Assembly (NCBI RefSeq): GCF_002954445.1
Contig: NZ_MQWA01000001.1
Location: forward strand, 57,090 to 110,497
DNA from: Rubritalea profundi
GTDB taxonomy: Bacteria > Verrucomicrobiota > Verrucomicrobiia > Verrucomicrobiales > Akkermansiaceae
Length of the DNA: 53,408 nucleotides
Direction: 5' to 3'
The notes under the pieces were generated by a model. That model did not search any database, was not told the DNA's origin, and saw nothing but the letters and a program-made list of their open reading frames with translations. Below are positions 1,210 through 51,122 of the stretch, one piece after another. Each line of letters starts with the position of its first letter. The stretch's first letter is position 1. A program made the translations under genes and the position numbers.

Positions 1210-2130
1210 TTACCACAGTTCTCTAATCGTGATTTTGAGCTTCGACTTCGACACAGAGTTCGATTCTTTCTTGGCAACCTCCGTGGATTCTCCACCTAGG
1301 ATTGACTTCTTTTTTATGGCTTGCGCTACCACTACAACTGGAGGCTGTAACGCCACCAAATTTTCCCTCTCCATTTTCTGCACGGCCGCCACCAAGGTCT
1401 CAGTCTTCCAGCTTCCAAGCTGACCACCTTTGTAGACTACCCAACGGTATGCCAAATCTTTGCCGGTCGTGAACGGAGCATAAGCGATAACTCTATACCG
1501 ATTCCCCCCTCTTATCTCAGCTGGCCCTTGACCGATGTAAATCCACTGAGACTCTAAACCAGTTAGAGGATCTATCCCACCCCTCATAGCTACATCAACC
1601 TGTAAAGTTTCTAGATCTTTCGGAGACCTCCCGTTCTGTCTTAAATAAGCAGTATACTCTTTACCTAAGTGACTCAGCGACTTTCGAGAAGCCAGGGTTC
1701 GCTCCTCCACCTTAAGTTCATAATACGACAACATTAACCGATACACCACATAGTGCTCCTTACCTCGCATCTTTTCAGCTTTCGCTTTTTTAAGGAGAAA
1801 CTGCATCTTGGGTTCCTTAAAATGCCCTCGCTCGTAGACCTTAATAAGATGAGTCCAAGCAAAATGCTTATAATCCACCTTGCCGCGCCTGATCTTTTTT
1901 AGCTGCTCGCGTGAAATTGAGTCTACTTTGAACTTTTCAAACTCATCCACCAATTTCTGCCTCGCCTCGCTGGTCCTCTCATCGCCCTTTAAATCAGGGC
2001 ACTCCCGCAAAATCGACGCTGCCAGCTTTTCCAAAGTGCGATCTAGATTCATCTCAGCCGCCACAGCGACTTCAGACCACACTAATCCTAGAGTCAGCAA
2101 TGCGGCAAAGACAGTTCTACAAAAAGTCAT
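1210..2130 (-). CDS. Secreted protein of unknown function
   Basis: The 306-residue protein starts with a typical Sec signal peptide: a charged N-terminus, a hydrophobic stretch (AALLTLGLVW) and an AVAA cleavage region near residue 25. The mature part is mainly charged and helical up to about residue 170. A C-terminal segment (GGIDPLTGLESQWIYIG, then RYRVIAYAPF) resembles the C-terminal end of type II secretion pseudopilin-like proteins (DP...G..Y motif), which is a weak hint only. I do not recognise the family. It points towards pilT from the other side, with the stops 58 bp apart. The next gene upstream, the S11-like protein, is 44 bp away on the same strand, so the two could be co-transcribed. 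A periplasmic or outer-envelope location is likely. Confidence 0.6.
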   Translation of the reverse strand: MTFCRTVFAALLTLGLVWSEVAVAAEMNLDRTLEKLAASILRECPDLKGDERTSEARQKLVDEFEKFKVDSISREQLKKIRRGKVDYKHFAWTHLIKVYERGHFKEPKMQFLLKKAKAEKMRGKEHYVVYRLMLSYYELKVEERTLASRKSLSHLGKEYTAYLRQNGRSPKDLETLQVDVAMRGGIDPLTGLESQWIYIGQGPAEIRGGNRYRVIAYAPFTTGKDLAYRWVVYKGGQLGSWKTETLVAAVQKMERENLVALQPPVVVVAQAIKKKSILGGESTEVAKKESNSVSKSKLKITIRELW

Positions 2131-2174: not shown

Positions 2175-3137
2175 TTATTGACCTAGAGCAATTTTTAGGA
2201 ACTCGCGGCGATCTGATGACGCCAAATACCCACCATTACGCCATGTCTCGTACTGGCTCCACCCTTGTGGGATAAGATTCTTCGCGAAAGCTTCTACATC
2301 TGAAGACCCCAGCACAACAAGGATCATTTGCACAGGAGTCACTTGTTCCTCGCCAGTAGGTAATTTTTTGACATACGAATATTTATCCACCAACAAACTA
2401 GCACATTGGCCAGCCATCGCTGAGGAACCGGCCTTCAAACCAACCACTTTCATCTTACGACGAAGCAACTTATTCGAATTGAGAACTTCTAAGCGCACCT
2501 CACGTTCATCACGTTTGAGAACCTTCAGACTCCTTTGCTTTTGTTTCGCGTAAAATCCATAGGCTGTATCTGTAGACAAAGCCAGCGAGAGACGAGCGAC
2601 ATCCGAGGCTGTTGACACATTACTGCGCCCGCTAGTATCCCCACCTGAAGGCAGATAGAAACGTGTATTATGCATTGCAAGTGAGCTAGCCAAATTATTC
2701 ATTTCATTGACAAACATAGACTGGGGGTCGCCAGCAAGTTGACGACGGTTAAGTAATTTTGACCCCACATGCGTAGCCAATGTCATTGCCGACACGCTAT
2801 CCTCTCCCAAAATTACAGCGTAGAGAGCATCTCGCATACTCAGCTGGTCGCCGGCTTGAAGTCCTAATGGGTTATCTATTCCTGAATAAAAGCCATGTTG
2901 AGGCACTACCAACATAGTCGTCGTACTCGTTGCCGACGCCTTTGTCCAATCTAAGGCCACCTTTGCTGTTACCATATGGCTAAGGCTAGCAATTGGACGC
3001 TTGTATTCAGACCCTGATGCCAAAAGCACCTTGCGTGAGTGCCTCTCCAGCACAATGTAGCTCTCCGGAGTCTGTGCTCCACTTGTAGAAATCAAAGTAA
3101 GACTGAAGAGTAGGGCTGGTATAAGGAATCGAATCAT
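2175..3137 (-). CDS. PBP5-like (peptidase S11) protein with degenerate active site
   Basis: The fold matches D-alanyl-D-alanine carboxypeptidases of family S11, which trim peptidoglycan stem peptides in the periplasm: signal peptide (residues 1-21), the DAL-like segment before the SGN region, the STASDVARL helix, and an NSNKLL segment before the third motif. All three catalytic motifs are altered. SxxK reads SLSH (51-54), so the general-base Lys is His. SGN reads LGE (110-112). KTG reads KAG (235-237). Codons at the first motif were checked on the DNA and are unambiguous. The reading frame is intact and of normal length (320 residues), so this looks like a maintained pseudoenzyme, perhaps a muropeptide-binding or regulatory protein, rather than a decaying gene. 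It lies 44 bp upstream of the secreted protein ending at 1210. Confidence 0.75.
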   Translation of the reverse strand: MIRFLIPALLFSLTLISTSGAQTPESYIVLERHSRKVLLASGSEYKRPIASLSHMVTAKVALDWTKASATSTTTMLVVPQHGFYSGIDNPLGLQAGDQLSMRDALYAVILGEDSVSAMTLATHVGSKLLNRRQLAGDPQSMFVNEMNNLASSLAMHNTRFYLPSGGDTSGRSNVSTASDVARLSLALSTDTAYGFYAKQKQRSLKVLKRDEREVRLEVLNSNKLLRRKMKVVGLKAGSSAMAGQCASLLVDKYSYVKKLPTGEEQVTPVQMILVVLGSSDVEAFAKNLIPQGWSQYETWRNGGYLASSDRREFLKIALGQ

Positions 3138-3462: not shown

Positions 3463-4143
3463 ATGTCAGACACACAGAAACCAAACCAAGGTAATCGCGA
3501 AGGTGGCAACCGCCGCCCGCGTCGCAACAACAATAATAACAACCGTAACCGCAACAATAATAGCGGTGGTGGCGGTAACAACCGCAACCGTAATCGTAGC
3601 AATCGCCCACCAAGGCCGCTCGTACTTACGTTCTGGCAGAAGTTCCTTAAAGCGATTGGCTGCCTAGACGAAGACAAGCTACGAAAGGCCCAACGCCCGC
3701 AGCGCCCACAAGGAAAGCAACGCGAGCAAGACGGGCAAACCGATCGAAAGACAACAGCTCCAAAGAGCAACGTCCGCAACGCAAGGACAGAATCCAATGA
3801 GGGTTCTGACAAGCCACGCCGCCGCGCTCCTCAGCCAGTAGCAGTCGAGTCCGCTCGTCTTTACGTAGGAAACCTTTCTTACGATGCTACTGAGTACGAC
3901 CTCGAAGACCTCTTCAAGGGAGTTGGTACAGTCAAGAACGTAGAGATTATCTACAACCGCAACACGCACAAATCTAAAGGTTATGGCTTCATCCAGATGC
4001 TTAACAAAGAAGAAGCTGAGCGTGCTGTTGAAGTGCTTCACGACCAGCCATTCATGAGCCGTCAGCTGGTGGTAAATGGTTCAAAGTCTCGTAAAGAAGG
4101 TGATACTTCTGGTGAGACTCAGACAAGCGAATCAGCGGAGTAA
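3463..4143 (+). CDS. RNA-binding protein with N-terminal Asn/Arg/Gly-rich region and C-terminal RRM
   Basis: 226 residues. Residues 1-50 are a low-complexity, basic tract made almost only of N, R and G. A short hydrophobic segment (LTFWQKFLKAIGCL, 55-68) and a charged linker follow. Residues 132-205 form one RNA recognition motif with RNP2 LYVGNL (133-138) and RNP1 KGYGFIQM (172-179), including the aromatic residues that stack on RNA bases. Bacterial RRM proteins are usually short (80-120 residues); the long disordered N-terminus is reminiscent of eukaryotic RGG/RRM proteins and could promote RNA condensation (inference). Such proteins in cyanobacteria respond to cold, but no regulatory element is visible here. 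The ATG at 3463 is the first in frame. A strong terminator follows. Confidence 0.85.
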   Translation: MSDTQKPNQGNREGGNRRPRRNNNNNNRNRNNNSGGGGNNRNRNRSNRPPRPLVLTFWQKFLKAIGCLDEDKLRKAQRPQRPQGKQREQDGQTDRKTTAPKSNVRNARTESNEGSDKPRRRAPQPVAVESARLYVGNLSYDATEYDLEDLFKGVGTVKNVEIIYNRNTHKSKGYGFIQMLNKEEAERAVEVLHDQPFMSRQLVVNGSKSRKEGDTSGETQTSESAE

Positions 4144-34684: not shown

Positions 34685-37198
34685 CTACGCTTTCGCGGCT
34701 CCGTTAGATTTAGGCTTTGATTTGACGGGCTTAAAGACGAGCTCTTCGCCTCCCCGCTTGCAAGTGACCTTGATCGTATCGCCTTCTTTGACATCGCCGC
34801 GGAGCAGAGCTTCTGCGAGCGGATCTTCGAGGAAACGCTCTACAGCACGACGCATTGGACGCGCACCGTATGTCGGGTCGTAGCCTTTTTCAGCTAGAAG
34901 GTTGAGAGCAGTTTTCTCAAGCTTGATCTTAATTCCTTTATCTTCCAGACGCGCGAAGAGCTTCTTGCACTCGAGATCGACAATGACACCAAGATCCTTC
35001 TTCTCAAGCATGTGGAAGACCACAAGCTCGTCAAGACGGTTGAGAAATTCAGGGCGGAAGAACTTCTTTGCCGCTTCCACGATCTTCTCCTTCATACCTT
35101 CGAAGTCGCTTTCATCTGCACTCATCGCACCAAATCCGAGAGACGTCTGTTTCTTCACTGTGGAAGCTCCAGCGTTGGAAGTGAGGATGATGATGGTGTT
35201 ACGGAAATCGATCTTGCGGCCGAGACTGTCGGTGATCATTCCTTCTTCAAGAATCTGAAGCAGCAAGTTCGTCACGTCTGGATGCGCTTTCTCGACTTCG
35301 TCAAAAAGAATCACTGAATATGGACGGCGGCGTACCGCTTCTGTGAGCTGACCACCTTCTTCGTGGCCGACGTATCCTGGAGGTGAACCAATCAAACGGC
35401 TACTCGCAAATTTTTCCATGTACTCGGACATATCGATCTGAATCAAGGAGTCTGGATCGCCGAACATGAAGTCCGCAAGGTTGCGGGCGAGGTAGGTTTT
35501 ACCCACACCTGTAGGGCCGAGGAAAAGAAATGAGCCGATCGGACGGCGCGGGTCTTTGAGGTCAGCACGTGAACGACGTAGCGCTTTAGAAATTGCTTTC
35601 ACGGCAGATGCCTGGCCGATCACACGGCTTGAGAGCTGCTTCTCCATATTGAGGAGACGGTCAGCTTCTTTTTGCTCCATCCGCTGGAGAGGAACTCCAG
35701 TCCACTTGGAAAGGACCTCCATGATCTCTTCTTCACCGACATGAACTGTGCTTTCTTCACTGACAATTTTCCACTTAGAAAGTGTCGCCTCTAACTTCTC
35801 CTTTGCTTGCTTTTCTTCATCACGAAGTGCAGCCGCTTTTTCAAAGTCTTGGTCATTGATTGCAGCTACCTTAAGTTTGTTGATCTCAACAATGTTGAGC
35901 TCTAGCTCCTTCACCTCTGGTGGGCGAGTCATCTGTCCGATGCGGGCGCGGGAACCAGCTTCGTCTATCACATCGATAGCCTTATCTGGGAGGAAACGCC
36001 CAGTAATATAACGTGAGGAAAGCCTCACAGCGGTTTCAAGAGCTCCATCAGAGTACTTCGCCTTGTGGTGTGTTTCATATTTCTCGCGAAGCCCTTTGAG
36101 AATCTCGATGGTATCCTCGACAGAAGGCTCGTCCACTTTTACTTGCTGGAAACGACGCTCAAGCGCGCTGTCTTTTTCGATAAATTTGCGGTATTCATTG
36201 AGCGTCGTAGCACCAACTACCTGAAGCTCTGAGCGACTGAGGGCTGGCTTAATGATGTTAGAAGCATCCATGGCTCCTTCGGCGGAACCTGCACCAACGA
36301 TAGTGTGGAGTTCGTCAATGAAGAGGATCACATTTTTGACCTTCTTGATCTCATCCATCACTGCCTTGATGCGTTCTTCAAACTGGCCACGGTACTTGGT
36401 ACCAGCAACCATCAGGGCCAGATCGAGTGTGATCACACGCTTATCGCGCAAAAGCTCAGGGACGTTTCCTGAAATAATTTCTTGGGCTAGACCTTCGATG
36501 ATCGCTGTCTTACCGACACCAGCTTCACCTACGAGAACTGGGTTGTTCTTAGTACGACGGCAGAGGATCTGAATAACGCGCTCGATCTCTTCTTCGCGGC
36601 CGATCACCGGATCGAGTCCGCCTTCTTGGGCTTTCTTCGTCAGATCCTGACCAAATGCTTTAAGAGCTGGAGTCTTGGTCTTGGCTTCTCCACCTTCTTC
36701 AGCTACTTCCTCTTCACCATCTTCAAACACCTCGAAGACCTCGTCTTCGTCGTCAGGGTTGAAGTTAGGATCGATCTCGGCGAGCACTTCTTGCCGAGTG
36801 CGCTGAATGTCTATGTCGAGTGATTGGAGAACGCGTGCTGCCACACCTTCACCTTCGCGGAGTAAACCTAACAATAAATGCTCAGTACCCACATAGGAAT
36901 GGCTGAGTTGCTTGGCTTCTTTATTCGCAAGATTCAGAACCTTCTTCACTCGAGGAGTGTAGGGAATCTGGCTCGAAACATTTTGCTCAGGGCCTGAGCC
37001 CACTTGTTTCTCAACTTCTAGGCGAACGGTATCGAGCTCAAGCCCCATACGTTCCAGTACGTTTACTGCCACTCCCTGGCCGAGCTTAATAAGCCCGAGC
37101 AGTACGTGCTCCGTACCGACGTAATTGTGGTTGAATCGATCTGCCTCCTTGCGTGCTAGGGCAAGGACTTGCTGTGCTCTTGGGGTAAAATTATTCAT
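34685..37198 (-). CDS. clpC: ATP-dependent unfoldase ClpC (HSP100)
   Basis: AAA+ chaperone that unfolds proteins, many of them tagged by arginine phosphorylation, and feeds them to ClpP. The 837 residues include a double Clp_N domain (two [18 protein letters not shown] repeats, 1-145), an acidic linker, AAA1 with Walker [10 protein letters not shown] (224-232), a UVR-containing middle domain ([18 protein letters not shown]), AAA2 with GPTGVGKTY and an [12 protein letters not shown] pore loop, and the D2-small domain. Length and order match ClpC rather than ClpA or ClpB. It overlaps the mcsB stop by 8 bp, giving the order mcsA-mcsB-clpC. One CTAACAA heptamer lies at 36868. ClpP is not in the window. 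Confidence 0.96.
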
Positions 37199-38327
37199 TC
37201 TCGAAATTTAAGTCGCCAGTGATTTCACTACCACCAACTATGTCATTAGTTATTATATTTATAGCAGGGGCAGTGAGAGTTTGCAACCTACTGCGTAAGA
37301 TTTCTGCTCTGATAATGTCGCGTTCTTCTGGTTCTAACTCAGCGCCAGCGTGTAACTGCAAATGCGCAGGCTGGATTTCCATCATCATAGAGTCACATGC
37401 TTGCATGGTTCCCTCCGGAAAGTAGCCCATTGCCGCTCCCATTCGGAGTAAGGAAATGTGTGAAAATGCCTCTTTCGAATCAAACATCGTCGCATATCCT
37501 AGGATCCCGTAGGCTCGTCCAATTTTATCACTCAGCTGATTCGGCTCGTCTTCGAGCATCTTCAACCGCGCATTGGTCTCGTGAGTTTCGATCTGCGCTA
37601 TGACACGCTCGAGACGTGAGATAATCACCTCCTCGCTCTCGCCAAGTGTTGCTTGGTTAGAAATCTGAAAAAGATGTCCCAACGACTCAGTGCCTTCACC
37701 AAAGAGTCCACGGACCGCGAGGCCTATCTTATTCACAGCCTGAAGAACCTGGCCGATTTGCTCAGTCAGCACGAGTGCAGGTAAGTGCAACATAGCAGAC
37801 GCACGCATGCCAGTCCCCAAGTTGGTCGGGCAAGCGGTGAGGTAGCCGAGTTCATCATCATAGGCGAATTCGAGATCCTTCTCTAGAGCGCTGTCGACTT
37901 TGGAAAGTAGCTGGTGCGCTTCACGCAAGCGGAGACCAGCACGGATCGATTGCATACGCAGGTGATCTTCCTCGTTGATCATCAAAGAAAGCCTCTGACC
38001 ACGGTCAACGACAGCGGCACTGCCTTGACCGCGTGCTGCTTGCTCGCGGCTGATCAAGTGACGCTCCACTAGCACTTGCTTCTGCAGAGGTTCTAGTTCT
38101 GATAGTTCATGGGAAAAGCCATTTTTCATGACTTTGAGAGCCTCCACCTTGGGTCGCATTTTGTCCATCGCTGCGACACGCTCAGCTTTTTTAGCCCAAC
38201 CTGGAAATGACAGGTCTCGAAGGTTACGCGCTAGTCGTATACGGCTAGTTACCACCACCTCGTTGTTGACATTTTTGCCTATCATCCAGTCGGCCGGATG
38301 CTTCATCAATGTTGAAAATCGCATCAT
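37191..38327 (-). CDS. mcsB: Protein arginine kinase McsB
   Basis: Phosphorylates arginine side chains, marking proteins for ClpC-ClpP. The 378-residue protein has the phosphagen-kinase fold: TSRIRLARNL near 27-36, the ATP-contacting Arg segments, the EFAYDDELGYLTACPTN region with the catalytic Cys166, and GTGMRASAMLHLPAL. The C-terminal domain region with conserved Arg residues that read phospho-arginine appears present. It starts 4 bp after mcsA and overlaps clpC. Starts at 38327, 38324 and 38306 are all in frame; the last (MKHPADWM) resembles other McsB N-termini best. Outside Firmicutes this kinase is less common, so it is a useful lineage marker. Confidence 0.94.
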   Translation of the reverse strand: MMRFSTLMKHPADWMIGKNVNNEVVVTSRIRLARNLRDLSFPGWAKKAERVAAMDKMRPKVEALKVMKNGFSHELSELEPLQKQVLVERHLISREQAARGQGSAAVVDRGQRLSLMINEEDHLRMQSIRAGLRLREAHQLLSKVDSALEKDLEFAYDDELGYLTACPTNLGTGMRASAMLHLPALVLTEQIGQVLQAVNKIGLAVRGLFGEGTESLGHLFQISNQATLGESEEVIISRLERVIAQIETHETNARLKMLEDEPNQLSDKIGRAYGILGYATMFDSKEAFSHISLLRMGAAMGYFPEGTMQACDSMMMEIQPAHLQLHAGAELEPEERDIIRAEILRSRLQTLTAPAINIITNDIVGGSEITGDLNFENE

Positions 38328-42764: not shown

Positions 42765-43514
42765 GCCTTTCTTCTAGCGAACAATCCCAGACAATCAATC
42801 TAGGGAGTAAAAAAGCAGAGCCCCTGCTCCAGAGTTCCTACACTAGGGAGCAAGAAAGCGATTTTTAGACAGAATTAACAAAATTTCACAGAATTTTTCA
42901 TGGGGAGCACAGAACAACGGCATCAGAAACATCATGGTTTGCCGGAAATTGGCGTGGCCAACTCCAGTTTCGTAGGTTAATTCTGAAAAATTCTGTTAAT
43001 TCTGTCCAGCGCCGCAGGCAACCTGTCCGCCATAGCTTCAGAGCGAAGGAAGATCAGCCCAAGTCCCTCCCTAGTGTCGGAGCCCTGACCCCTGCCCCAA
43101 AATCTAGGCAACCCTCGCAAATACTCTACTCTGTGCTATCAATAGAGGATGAAAAACCTTTTGATGAATCTCTTCATCCCACTGGCCACTCAGCAGGTCC
43201 ATGCCGCGGATAGACCAGATGGGGTAAAACTCCTCTCATCCCACGAGACCATTGCAGTTTTCAATGGCACACGCTTTCAGAAATGCCGCCACCACGCGGG
43301 TAAAATGCCGCACGTCCATCTTGATTTGCGTTAAAATGTTTAGCGCATAGAAATCTACCAGAATGACTAAATGAAACTATATACCGGTTGCAGTGAGCCT
43401 GTCTCTCCGTCTGTTTGTGTACAGTCTGCCTCGGCTCTCCGTTTCGTTCTCGACAAAACCCCCGACAAAAAGCAATTTCCTAGAAATTTCCAAGCAATAG
43501 CACTCAATCAATTT
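42765..43514. other. Intergenic region with a large inverted repeat
   Basis: About 750 bp between rsmA and the PVC cytochrome gene, serving both promoters. Two copies of a 20-bp sequence around GACAGAATTAACA lie in inverted orientation at 42868-42886 and 42986-43006 and could form a stem with a loop of about 100 nt. A 61-codon frame from the ATG at 43149 (MKNLLMNLFIPLATQQ) has a GAGG close to its start but no recognisable family; I do not call it. Frame-open sequence continues upstream of the chosen start of the cytochrome gene to 43371, including an imperfect copy of the motif seen at 30953 and 51428. Confidence 0.5.
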
Positions 43515-46500
43515 ATGAAATTTCTCCTATCTCGCCACTCTATGGTAGCAGTATCTACGCTGCTACTTCTGCCCCTATCCCCTCTTTCAGCTGTCCCCGA
43601 TGCGTCAGCGAAAAAAATCGAAGGAACCGCCAGCGAAGAGCCGGTAAAAGTCATAGAGTCCGACGAGGCAATCCTCGCCACCATCAGCTATCCCGACGAC
43701 ATGAAGGCCGGGATCTTCGCCCGTGAACCAGATGTGTTCAACGCGACCGCAATTTCAATGGACGAACAGAATCGCTTGTTCGTTGCCGAGACCCACCGCT
43801 TCGATCGCGGGATCGAAGACAACCGTCGCAACTGGTACTGGCTCCGTGACGAGGTCGGCCTGAAGACCACCGCCGACCGCCTCGCACTCCTCGAGAAGTA
43901 TGCCGACAAGAAGACGCCAGGCTACTACACCGAGCACGCCGAGAAGATCCGAGTGCTAGAAGACAAAAATGGCGACGGCAAGGCGGAGAGATCATGGATC
44001 TATGCCGATGGTTTCAACAACCCGCTCGACGGCACAGCAGCCGGCATCATGGCAGCGAACGGCAAAGTCTACTTCGCCTGTATCCCTAACGTCTGGATGC
44101 TAGAAGACAAGAATGGGGACGGCGTCTCCGACACCAGAACCTCACTGCAAGAAGGATACGGCATCAGCGTCAGCCTCAGCGGGCACGACCTCAACGGCTT
44201 CGCCTTTGGCCCAGACGGCCGCATCTACTTCACCATCGGTGACCGCGGTTACGATCTTAAAACAGCCGACGGCCGCCATCTCTACGACCAGTATGGTGGT
44301 GCAATCTTCCGCATGGAGCCCGATGGAAGCAACCTGGAAGTGGTCCACTACAACCTCCGTAACCCAAAGGAGATCGCGTTTGATCAATACGGAGTCGCCT
44401 TCTCTGTCGATAACAACGCCGACATGGGCGACAAAGCACGGGTAGTTCAGATGGTCGAAGGCGCTATGTCGGGGTGGAACCGCGGCAACCAGAGCTTCCG
44501 CAACTGGCCACACGCCATCGACGTCACAAGACGGCACGAAACTCCGTGGATGGCTGAGTCTTGGTGGAAAATAGAAGCCAAAAACCGCCCCAAGGCTTTC
44601 CTTCCACCGGCCGGGCACGTCAGCGTCGGACCATCTGGACTTGCCTACAACCCCGGTATCGGTCTGTCCAAAAAGTGGGACAACAACTTTTTCGTCTGCG
44701 ATTACCGTGGCGGAGGCAGCGAAGTGATTGGCTTCGAAATGAACCCTATGGGTGCCGGCTACAAAGTTGCCAGCAACGAGACATTTATCAAAGGATTCCT
44801 CAACACCGACATCGAGTTCGGATTTGATGGCAAGGTCTACGTCAGCGACTTTACCGGTGGTTGGAAAACCTACGATTTCGGCACGATTTTCGTATTTTAC
44901 AATCCAGTCGAGATCGCCAAACCTGTCGTCGCCGAAGTGAAATCTCTCTTCGCCAATGGATTTGACTCACTTTCCCCAGAAAAACTAGCCCAACTCCTAC
45001 AGCACCAAGACTTGCGGGTCAGACAGCGAGCTCAGTTTGCCCTCGCCGGCTCTCCGAAAAACCGCACGCATTTCGTCGCAGCAACGGCAAGCGCCAATCC
45101 ACTCATCACCCGCCTCCACGGCGTCTGGGGTCTCGGCCAGTTGAGCCGCACCCACAAGGACAAGGCCTCCACAGAAAATCTCGTAAAACTGACTCAGGAC
45201 GAGCACTGGCGCGTGCGAGGTCAAGCATCTCAGGCTCTAGGTTTCTCAGCCGCACAGATCGGCCGCAAGGCGCTCATCGAGCGACTCACTGACAAACACC
45301 CAAACACCCGCATGCTGGCAGCCACCGCGCTGGGCAAGCTGGGTCATAGGGAAGACGTCCCTCACCTCATCAAGGTCCTCGAACAGAACTCCAATGGAGA
45401 CGCCTACCTGCGCCACGGTGCGGTGAACGGACTTCGCCTGATCGCTGAAGCCAACAAAACCGCCGAGGATTTACTGAAATTCAAGAATCACAAATCGGCG
45501 GAAGTTCGCCTTGGTCTAATCATCGCACTCCGCCGCCTCGCTGCCCCCGGCATCGCCCATTTTCTCAAGGACTCCGACCCAGCACTGGTGATTGAAACCG
45601 TTCAAGCCATCAACGACGGATACATCGAAGGTGCCCGTGCTGCTCTGGCGGCACAGACCCAACTAGTGGGAACCTCGTCGGTCCCGATCGACTACCGCAT
45701 CATCAACTCCATCGTTCGTCTGGGCAATCCCAAGGGCATCCTCTCCCTCCTTGCCATGGCGGAAAACGAGAAGCTTCCCGACGACAGCCGGATCGAATGC
45801 CTGTTCCAACTGGCTCGCTGGGAGAAACCTCCCGCTGGCGACCCTACCACTGGAAAAATTCGCCCAATAACCGGCGATCGCAGCCTTGAAACCGTCCGCC
45901 CTCAAATCACCAAAAGCCTCGAGAGGCTGCTTGATCAGGCGAATGGCAAGGTCCTCGCTGAGGTGCTGAAGACCGGTAACAAATTCGGCGTCTCCACATC
46001 CCAAGAAACCCTGCGCGCCCAACTGCTCAATGACGACAACATCCGAGAGGTGCGACTCGCAGCCCTCAAGAACCTACTTAATAACAAGGACAGTAAGTTG
46101 ATCAAAACTCTGCAGAAAAGCCTCCGTGCCAAAGAGCCAGAAGTACGCCGATCCAGCCTGCAAGCCCTCACCAAGCTCTCTTCCAAAGTGGCTCTCAAAG
46201 AGTCCCAAAGGATGCTCGAGAGCAAATCCCCCTTCGATCGCCAGATCGCCATTCGGGCACTAGCATCCATCAAGGACAAGAAAGCCACCGCATCCATCCT
46301 CGCCATGCTGAAGACCATCGAGAATCAGCCAATCGAGGTTCATCTCGACATCATAGAAACAGCAAAAGCTGCCGGTGATCCCGGCTTAACCAAAGCTCTG
46401 GAAGCCTACGAAGCGAAACTCTCCAAGGACGACCCGCTTGCCGCCTTCCAAGTAACGCTGGCGGGTGGAGACATCGGCAAAGGACGCGCCGTCTTATACG

Positions 46501-46892
46501 GTCACGGCGCAGCACAGTGCACCCGTTGCCACAAGGCTGACCCCAACCGCAAGGGCGGAGTCGCTGGCCCCGATCTTAAGAACGCCGGCAAGAAGCACAA
46601 TGCCGCCTACCTGCTGGAGTCATTGATCTTGCCGAATGCCCGGATCGCCTCCGGCTTTGGCATGGTTTCTCTCACCATGAAGGATGGTAGCCTACTTGCC
46701 GGCATGCTCGCCAAGGACACCCCAGAGTCAATCACCATCACCAGTCTCGCCGATGGGAAAGAGTCGACGCACCTGCGCAAAGACATTGCTTCCGTTTCAC
46801 AGGCTATGTCGACCATGCCTCCGATGGGGCACATGCTCACTAAGAAGGAAATCCGCGATCTCATCGCCTACCTCCAATCCTTGAAATTCTAG
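43515..46892 (+). CDS. PVC-type membrane-associated dehydrogenase with HEAT repeats and C-terminal cytochrome c domain
   Basis: 1125 residues from the ATG at 43515, which starts a signal peptide (MKFLLSRHSMVAVSTLLLLPLSP); the frame to 43371 adds an atypical 48 residues. Order of parts: an N-terminal seven-bladed sugar-dehydrogenase-like propeller (about 70-470) with repeated DKNGDGKAERSW- and DGVSDTRT-like loops, a HEAT-repeat array (about 490-900), and a C-terminal c-type haem domain with CTRCH near residue 1001 plus the GVAGPDL and LLESLILPNA segments typical of the Planctomycetes/Verrucomicrobia haem-binding domain. Such proteins are abundant in this phylum and probably oxidise sugars or sugar alcohols in the periplasm. 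Local G+C is visibly higher than in the 20-34 kb region, consistent with a different history. Confidence 0.88.
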   Translation: MKFLLSRHSMVAVSTLLLLPLSPLSAVPDASAKKIEGTASEEPVKVIESDEAILATISYPDDMKAGIFAREPDVFNATAISMDEQNRLFVAETHRFDRGIEDNRRNWYWLRDEVGLKTTADRLALLEKYADKKTPGYYTEHAEKIRVLEDKNGDGKAERSWIYADGFNNPLDGTAAGIMAANGKVYFACIPNVWMLEDKNGDGVSDTRTSLQEGYGISVSLSGHDLNGFAFGPDGRIYFTIGDRGYDLKTADGRHLYDQYGGAIFRMEPDGSNLEVVHYNLRNPKEIAFDQYGVAFSVDNNADMGDKARVVQMVEGAMSGWNRGNQSFRNWPHAIDVTRRHETPWMAESWWKIEAKNRPKAFLPPAGHVSVGPSGLAYNPGIGLSKKWDNNFFVCDYRGGGSEVIGFEMNPMGAGYKVASNETFIKGFLNTDIEFGFDGKVYVSDFTGGWKTYDFGTIFVFYNPVEIAKPVVAEVKSLFANGFDSLSPEKLAQLLQHQDLRVRQRAQFALAGSPKNRTHFVAATASANPLITRLHGVWGLGQLSRTHKDKASTENLVKLTQDEHWRVRGQASQALGFSAAQIGRKALIERLTDKHPNTRMLAATALGKLGHREDVPHLIKVLEQNSNGDAYLRHGAVNGLRLIAEANKTAEDLLKFKNHKSAEVRLGLIIALRRLAAPGIAHFLKDSDPALVIETVQAINDGYIEGARAALAAQTQLVGTSSVPIDYRIINSIVRLGNPKGILSLLAMAENEKLPDDSRIECLFQLARWEKPPAGDPTTGKIRPITGDRSLETVRPQITKSLERLLDQANGKVLAEVLKTGNKFGVSTSQETLRAQLLNDDNIREVRLAALKNLLNNKDSKLIKTLQKSLRAKEPEVRRSSLQALTKLSSKVALKESQRMLESKSPFDRQIAIRALASIKDKKATASILAMLKTIENQPIEVHLDIIETAKAAGDPGLTKALEAYEAKLSKDDPLAAFQVTLAGGDIGKGRAVLYGHGAAQCTRCHKADPNRKGGVAGPDLKNAGKKHNAAYLLESLILPNARIASGFGMVSLTMKDGSLLAGMLAKDTPESITITSLADGKESTHLRKDIASVSQAMSTMPPMGHMLTKKEIRDLIAYLQSLKF

Positions 46893-49940: not shown

Positions 49941-50945
49941 TCATGGATGGTTGATCTCTGTTTCTAATACGTTTAGTGAAGTTATGATCTTTTCAAAAGA
50001 CGGGCGACGTCCAAAAATCATTTCTTGCATGGCTGCGTAGTCCTTTTGCATGGCATTGAGGGTATGATCTTGCGGGATTAGTTTAAGCGTGTCTCTGACT
50101 GCAGAATCATAATTAGCCCAGCTGCGAGGGTAGAATTTTTCTTAAAAAGGACAACATGATCCAGCAACTCCATCTTTCCTAATGCAGACGCTTTCAGCGT
50201 TTCATCGGCGGCCATGAGACAAAGATCATAATAATGTCGCGAGTAGCGCTTAGGGATAATTGAACCTATGGGGCGATGGGCTTCATGATGCAGGATCGTG
50301 GCTTTCTCCCAAAAGGTGCGCTCCGCATCAATCGCACGAACAGAGCACTGCGGGGCATCAAATTGAGCTGGGAAATTTTCTGCAGCGTCAGGTGTGATGG
50401 TGTGTTCCGAGTGCGGCAGCCAGGAAGCCAAAGGGCCGATTTCCAGTTGGATGTAGGGTAGTAGGCCTGCCGAGTTCGACGTTTTGGGATATTTAACCCG
50501 AACAACATGCCCTTGGTCTTTTTCGTCCGGTTTAACTTCAAGTTCGCAGTGTGAACCGAGCGCTTCTTCCATGCATGGTACCATCTTTTCAGCAATATAG
50601 GCGCAGGCCTTCTGATTCAGAACTTCGTTGACCTGGCGCTGTTTCGTCTTCGAACGCTCCGCCATCGGGTCTTGAACCTCACTCACCACTCTCCAGTCCA
50701 ACACCAAGTCGATGTCCTCCGAGAAGCGGTCGATCAGCCCATAGACTTTCGACAGGCTCGTGCCCCCCGTGAAAATCAGCTGCGTGGATAGTTCAGGATG
50801 TTCAAACAGTTGCTTCAGCGTCCAGCAGACCCAGAAGTCTTTTTCCACCACGGCAATCGTGCCCATGCCGCGCGGTTCCGCGGTCAGCGTGAAAAGTTCA
50901 TTTCGCTCCTTCTCGGACAATGTTGCTACACGGTTCCGAAAAAAG
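49941..50945 (-). pseudogene. AbiEii-type nucleotidyltransferase toxin gene, start lost and frameshifted
   Basis: Family-like sequence runs from about 50945 (FFRNRVATLSEKERNELF) leftward. It has VVEKDFWVCWTLKQLF, the nucleotidyltransferase signature GGTSLSKVYGLIDRF, SEDIDLVL with both Asp, and ERTFWEKATILHHEAHR. AbiEii toxins of type IV systems transfer nucleotides to RNA or tRNA targets. Two defects are visible. No ATG belongs to the family N-terminus; the frame continues into a repeat element (50951 on). A frameshift near 50138, at an A5 run, ends the frame at 50078, while the next frame continues with YPRSWANYDSAVRDTLKLIP and ends at 49941, matching the family C-terminus. No antitoxin gene precedes it, so the toxin is probably dead. 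Confidence 0.8.
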
Positions 50946-50950
50946 GAGTC

Positions 50951-51020
50951 AAAAAAAAGGGGTCGGGTGATAAATCTTATAATTTTCTGTTTAACTTCTC
51001 GCCATTCTTTTGCTCCTTGG
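50951..51020 (+). repeat. 66-bp direct repeat, left copy
   Basis: Begins with AAAAAAAAGGGGTCGGGTGA and ends near TTCTTTTGCTCCTTGG. The right copy is at 52961-53027. The GGGGTC(A/G)GGTGATAAATC motif resembles flanks of REP-type or IS200/IS605-type (Y1 transposase) units in related genomes; this is from memory. It abuts the truncated AbiEii gene. Confidence 0.85.
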
Positions 51021-51122
51021 CGGACTCGCCTCATCCTCCGTCGCCGCAAGTAACCCGGCCTCAGAAAACCCACCAGCCTTCCAACCCCATTCCCCGGTCA
51101 CACGGGGGGCGAGGTTTTTTCG
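51020..51122 (+). pseudogene. 3' remnant of a second PEP-CTERM gene with its terminator
   Basis: About 100 bp resembling the tail of the PEP-CTERM gene at 49615-49721: codons for GGLA, then with one base missing LILRRRK and a stop, followed by a similar trailer (CGGCCTCAGAAAAC) and a degraded hairpin. No coding sequence precedes it; the 66-bp repeat abuts directly. Confidence 0.65.

Follow-up and report, generated by a model that had tools for sequence, protein, structure and literature searches.

A maintained and probably inactive S11 peptidase-like protein in Rubritalea profundi, from an orthologous group with recurrent loss of catalytic motifs

What keeps a gene for a DD-peptidase-like protein in a genome when the residues expected of the enzyme are no longer there? 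The question is raised by an open reading frame in a 53,408-nucleotide stretch of the Rubritalea profundi genome, referred to here as the window. A first-pass annotation made from the letters alone had described its product as an S11 carboxypeptidase-like protein with SxxK, SGN and KTG all changed in an otherwise intact protein of normal length, possibly a maintained pseudoenzyme. The frame (2175-3137, minus strand) opens with ATG and runs without interruption for 320 aa, and the S11 fold is kept. The features needed here are as follows.

2175..3137, minus strand: gene of the putative S11-like pseudoenzyme, 320 aa (Pfam, predicted fold)
3075..3137, minus strand: probable Sec signal peptide, spanning roughly residues 1-21 (sequence by eye; predicted helix 5-17)
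2976..2987, minus strand: motif 1, residues 51-54, SLTK changed to SLSH, with the catalytic Lys gone and the Ser kept (alignment)
2796..2804, minus strand: motif 2, residues 112-114, SDN changed to EDS (alignment)
2427..2435, minus strand: motif 3, residues 235-237, KTG changed to KAG (alignment)
2295..2297, minus strand: residue 281, Val in the window protein and Arg in 112/114 intact orthologues (alignment)
1210..2130, minus strand: 306-aa, secreted-looking protein downstream of the S11-like gene (no Pfam match)
3463..4143, plus strand: RRM-protein gene, divergent, a recurrent neighbour (Pfam; homologue in 56/171 orthologue loci)

None of the three motifs of a functional S11 DD-carboxypeptidase or endopeptidase (SxxK, SxN, KTG) is present in the window protein. 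Compared with intact orthologues it retains Ser51, Lys235 and Gly237 and lacks Lys54, Ser112, Asn114 and Thr236. The changes to SLSH and KAG are as first described, but motif 2 had been read two residues too early, as LGE; alignment of ..LLGSDNVAA.. in intact orthologues with ..ILGEDSVSA.. in the window sets the register at EDS, and motif 2 in the orthologues themselves reads SDN, not SGN. Residue 281, Val here, is elsewhere the Arg that we take to be the probable substrate-carboxylate Arg of S11 enzymes. The N-terminus is hydrophobic and, by eye, resembles a Sec signal peptide.

Membership of the S11 family is supported by the Pfam Peptidase_S11 model (PF00768), against which the window protein scored 86.5 bits with a cut-off of 27.6. 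It also exceeded the cut-off of 22 of Beta-lactamase2 (PF13354), with 29.5 bits; the S11 model is thus the closer of the two, and an assignment as a serine beta-lactamase was rejected. An AlphaFold2 model built from an input alignment of 61 relatives from named genomes was confident (pLDDT 92.1, pTM 0.88) and has the predicted fold of a DD-peptidase. The top VIA match was the Streptomyces K15 DD-transpeptidase (1esi; Z 32.5, rmsd 2.0 over 246 residues), Z ranged from 28.1 to 32.5 across the best 50 structure matches listed, and Foldseek matched the model to Bacillus subtilis DacB with E 1.1e-14. In the model Ser51 starts a helix (50-68), residues 112-114 lie between helices 101-111 and 114-131, and residues 235-237 lie at strand 236-239. 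PADLOC gave no match for either the window protein or its 306-aa downstream neighbour, and a relation to defence was rejected.

The genome from which the window comes (4.17 Mb, 4 contigs) holds two S11 loci, this gene and a canonical one, L001, with intact STQK, SGN and KTG, which supplies the normal S11 paralogue that the first-pass annotation had proposed to look for. All 11 gene-bearing genomes of the window's genus likewise have one canonical S11 gene each with its motifs intact, as do all 25 genomes of the genus Akkermansia that were searched with the S11 model. Nothing supports the idea that an S13 enzyme has taken over in the window's genus: the S13 model matched in 2 of 12 genomes, and both matches cover just a short part of the canonical S11 frame.

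To place the window protein we collected its orthologues. A search of the named genomes with the window protein alone as query found no relative. A first set of 58 genomes contained a strong orthologue in 49, a weak match in 6 and no match in 3; a family sample of 195 genomes gave matches at E <= 1e-30 in 179 (counted by hand), weak ones in 12, which look like the canonical S11 paralogue, and none in 4, and the gene is therefore absent from 16/195, incomplete genomes being counted in. Among 171 aligned orthologues from 171 genomes, SxxK, SxN and K[TS]G are all kept in 114. The remaining 57 miss at least one motif; SxxK is missing in 47 and all three motifs in 26, and the losses show no fixed order (8 rows lack SxxK alone, 4 KTG alone and 2 SxN alone). 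Intact orthologues of the same family and order (L004, L006, L007 and others) are 33-49% identical to the window protein and have the same conserved C-terminal Trp and Gly positions, and neighbouring genes are common to many of these loci; unlike the window protein, which has none of these, they keep SxxK, SDN, KTG and, in all but two, Arg281.

The shared neighbours support orthology; their counts are lower bounds because flank lengths differ. A phosphofructokinase gene (pfk) lies inside the fetched stretch of 125/171 loci (83/114 intact, 42/57 not intact), and miaA is found in 41/171. The window's pfk lies elsewhere in its genome, with the RRM gene and miaA placed as they are beside the intact L004. 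Near its N-terminus the RRM protein is rich in Asn, Arg and Gly. The 306-aa protein has a 38% identical homologue at the same place in Rubritalea marina; of the 39 genomes searched just two others matched it, both weakly. It may be a candidate partner in this Rubritalea subclade. Farther along the window are a ClpC-like ATPase adjoining a protein that carries an ATP:guanido phosphotransferase domain (34685-38327, minus strand), an arrangement like McsB-ClpC in a verrucomicrobium; an AbiEii-like nucleotidyltransferase of the type IV toxin-antitoxin family (50078-51073, minus strand); and a 1173-aa protein (43371-46892, plus strand) that has DUF7133 and HEAT repeats and also matches cytochrome c.

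Within the window's genus, which includes Rubritalea marina DSM 17716, the gene is present in 11/12 genomes, intact in two (L004 and L020) and not intact in nine; other named relatives carry the labels Luteolibacter, Roseibacillus, Haloferula and Akkermansia. Relatives that share the inactive state are only 41-51% identical to the window protein. Because relatives of the same clade are also changed in all three motifs, the changes go beyond chance or sequencing error, and a lone oddity was ruled out, with other lineages carrying motif changes of their own. Members of the Rubritalea clade have the inactive state in common; their residues at the motif positions vary, and His54 is confined there to the window protein.

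Two trees were built without the motif columns. The quick tree (122 rows) placed all 8 inactive Rubritalea members together (SH-aLRT 85). The careful tree (61 rows, 6 of the 8 included) joined the window protein with L005 (100/96), recovered the inactive Rubritalea clade (99/91) and placed the intact L004 as its sister (100/98). The former requires 16 or more switches between the all-intact and the not-intact state, the latter 9 or more in the state of SxxK; these counts infer neither root nor direction. A single ancient loss was rejected, since the tree separates the inactive groups: with p-values that are optimistic because the groups were chosen with the tree already in view, the AU test rejected a single clade of the four inactive groups (p 0.003), marginally rejected Rubritalea plus Akkermansia (p 0.044) and did not reject Rubritalea plus the L025/L026/L171 group (p 0.056). 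The data are better read as several independent losses, whose number they do not fix. Recurrent motif loss across an order of Verrucomicrobiota is supported and widens the pseudoenzyme reading beyond the window; the same kind of loss in many relatives suggests a job without catalysis, and this recurrence is what makes the finding interesting.

The largest inactive set comes from the genus Akkermansia, by which we mean the genus that holds A. muciniphila strain CSUN-56. An orthologue is present in 73/76 genomes, and SxxK is absent from all 70 orthologues examined, all of them in the full-length range: motif 1 reads M..N in 54, each with the same MLxN replacement, S..Q in 14, T..H in one and C..Q in one. 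The inactive Akkermansia copies, whose replacement residues are fixed in the MLxN group, lie apart from Rubritalea in the tree and keep Arg281. The CSUN-56 copy (L271; SLSQ/SDN/KAG) is orthologous to the window gene, and both lack SxxK and have KAG as motif 3. It stands directly upstream of pfk (L271 3986-6081; G000:C1:4089012-4090079), whose product there matches PF00365 with 325.5 bits. Three of the 76 genomes lack the gene, one of them, G140, a single contig with no close match to pfk either; G177 has pfk, and the side of it that the S11-like gene occupies in L271 is taken by another gene, of 397 aa. Since some genomes of the family and of Akkermansia do without it, the gene is dispensable in places. 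Seven metagenome bins labelled A. muciniphila (L215, L228, L246, L267, L270, L277 and L280) have orthologues with intact motifs, unlike the 70 copies of CSUN-56's genus, and fall outside that genus, which makes their labels doubtful. A. muciniphila is reported to retain the class A PBP (PMC8406291), so the setting is not a wall-less one.

Selection was estimated by codon maximum likelihood with the motif columns left out, and the inactive clades prove to be under strong purifying selection there. For the inactive Rubritalea set omega was 0.031, a rough value because synonymous sites are saturated, and omega = 1 was worse by 570 lnL. The inactive Akkermansia sets gave 0.067 (MLxN) and 0.043 (other copies of the genus), and three intact sets 0.015, 0.052 and 0.063. 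NG86 medians on disjoint pairs with dS of 0.05-1.5 were 0.086 for pairs without SxxK (8 usable of 14, none from the window's own clade) and 0.12 for intact pairs (32 usable of 48). In Tajima tests the window protein had more unique changes than L004 with 8/8 outgroups, at p<0.05 in 5/8, the outgroups not being independent. As the window protein and its inactive relatives evolve faster than their intact sister, some relaxation is real; given the low omega of the inactive clade and the much poorer fit of omega = 1, it is mild, and the rate shift is an acceleration, not neutrality. The first-pass annotation had named intact orthologues in close relatives, together with relaxed selection here, as the pattern that would count against it; such orthologues do exist, the sister among them, and the window protein is the faster, but the relaxation is too mild to complete that pattern.

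Constraint on the former active site differs between the two genera. In the inactive Rubritalea clade (8 rows), conservation is comparatively low at residues 51, 112, 114, 235 and 236 (a fraction of 0.08-0.32 of the columns is less conserved than these), residue 237 is a gap in 7/8, residue 54 is Gln in seven and His in the window protein (0.68), and Asp113 is invariant. Across 36 thinned MLxN rows, residues 51, 52, 54, 113 and 114 do not vary at all, residue 112 is Asp in 35, and Arg281, which the window protein has lost, is kept in all 54 MLxN copies. The cleft seems free to change in Rubritalea; in most Akkermansia copies it is constrained again, with the replacements MLxN and DDS fixed.

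Shared neighbours, an inactive clade within the genus, purifying selection (with the caveats of saturation and the faster rate), an intact paralogue and a confident S11 fold together sustain the original proposal of a maintained pseudoenzyme, and the window protein is very probably a maintained, inactive member of the S11 family. The best explanation as a whole, to which we assign a probability of about 0.55, is a maintained, inactive, exported S11 protein whose gene was kept by a non-catalytic role. The S11-like protein would be exported to the periplasm, where its ancestor may, besides its catalysis, have served peptidoglycan assembly as a structural or partner-binding protein. Since D-Ala is removed by the canonical paralogue, several lineages could then have discarded catalysis, and what kept the gene afterwards would be the non-catalytic role. 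In Rubritalea the retained function might reside on the surface of the fold, through binding of a cell-wall protein or glycan, and not in recognition of peptides by the cleft; a place outside the cleft seems most likely, given how variable the columns of the old active site are in the inactive clade. For a maintained and inactive protein, the chances of such a surface scaffold are about even. We put forward more tentatively, at slightly under even odds, a broader view in which one S11 lineage across this order has a primarily non-catalytic job and lost catalysis several times independently, the site having been rebuilt in most Akkermansia (M-L-x-N, D-D-S) for a different ligand or partner.

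Other readings account for part of these data. The window protein could, as first proposed, bind peptidoglycan peptides or regulate a PBP; a non-hydrolysing cleft that still recognises stem peptides or beta-lactams non-covalently, acting as a sensor or as a shield of PBP substrates, is consistent with the kept S11 fold, with Ser51, Lys235 and Gly237 in the window protein, and with the invariant or nearly invariant cleft residues and universal Arg281 of the Akkermansia MLxN copies. It is nonetheless unlikely, because the motif positions of the inactive Rubritalea members are among their less conserved ones, most of these members have lost residues of motif 3, and the window protein itself lacks Arg281. 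The retained Ser51 and Lys235 might allow residual chemistry, and an enzyme in which either His54 or Lys235 activates Ser51, its substrate perhaps a different one, would fit the alignment of these residues and Gly237 as in an S11 active site, as well as the His found at the same position in one Akkermansia copy (TLAH). Against it, the closest relative, L005 (51% identity), reads GMVQ and has no Ser, and the other seven clade members have Gln where the window protein has His. In the K15 enzyme a K38H change is said nearly to have abolished penicillin binding. That mutant of the homologous enzyme, with the same Lys-to-His change at SxxK, has been solved (PDB 1j9m), and we consider altered chemistry the most improbable of the readings discussed here.

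A gene redundant with the canonical S11 enzyme and decaying towards loss would explain the faster rate relative to the intact sister and the absence of the gene from some genomes, including G140, where its pfk neighbour is missing as well. An intact reading frame, an inactive state held in common by such divergent species, omega far below 1 and the number of full-length inactive copies in Akkermansia, most with one and the same replacement, argue against decay, which we judge quite unlikely, if somewhat less so than altered chemistry. The maintained, inactive protein with a non-catalytic role remains the preferred explanation.

Low-molecular-mass PBPs are mostly treated as enzymes, and their knock-out phenotypes are often mild. 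An orthologous group that repeatedly loses catalysis and keeps the gene offers natural separation-of-function mutants, with which non-catalytic roles of these proteins become testable, also in Akkermansia muciniphila. Since inactive copies score above the Pfam S11 cut-off, anyone annotating them from PF00768 alone would call them D-Ala-D-Ala carboxypeptidases, a name to which their motifs, as read from sequence, give no support. An inactive S11 protein of this group is not described in the titles and abstract openings covered, a body from which subscription papers are mostly missing; the passages of one paper naming both Akkermansia and carboxypeptidase (PMC12819154) are unrelated in content.

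With the S11 DD-peptidases Streptomyces K15, E. coli PBP5 and PBP6 and B. subtilis DacB, the window protein has the family PF00768 in common and a fold over residues 25-295 or more, and it differs from them by its changed SxxK, SxN and KTG. MEROPS lists non-peptidase homologues of S11, and in other families the degenerate LytM factors EnvC and NlpD work without catalysis. That a PBP can have a role apart from catalysis has a precedent in B. subtilis PBP2B, of another family, an inactive mutant of which supports division (PMC5656894). As in these cases, a cell-wall enzyme fold would here do a structural or regulatory job.
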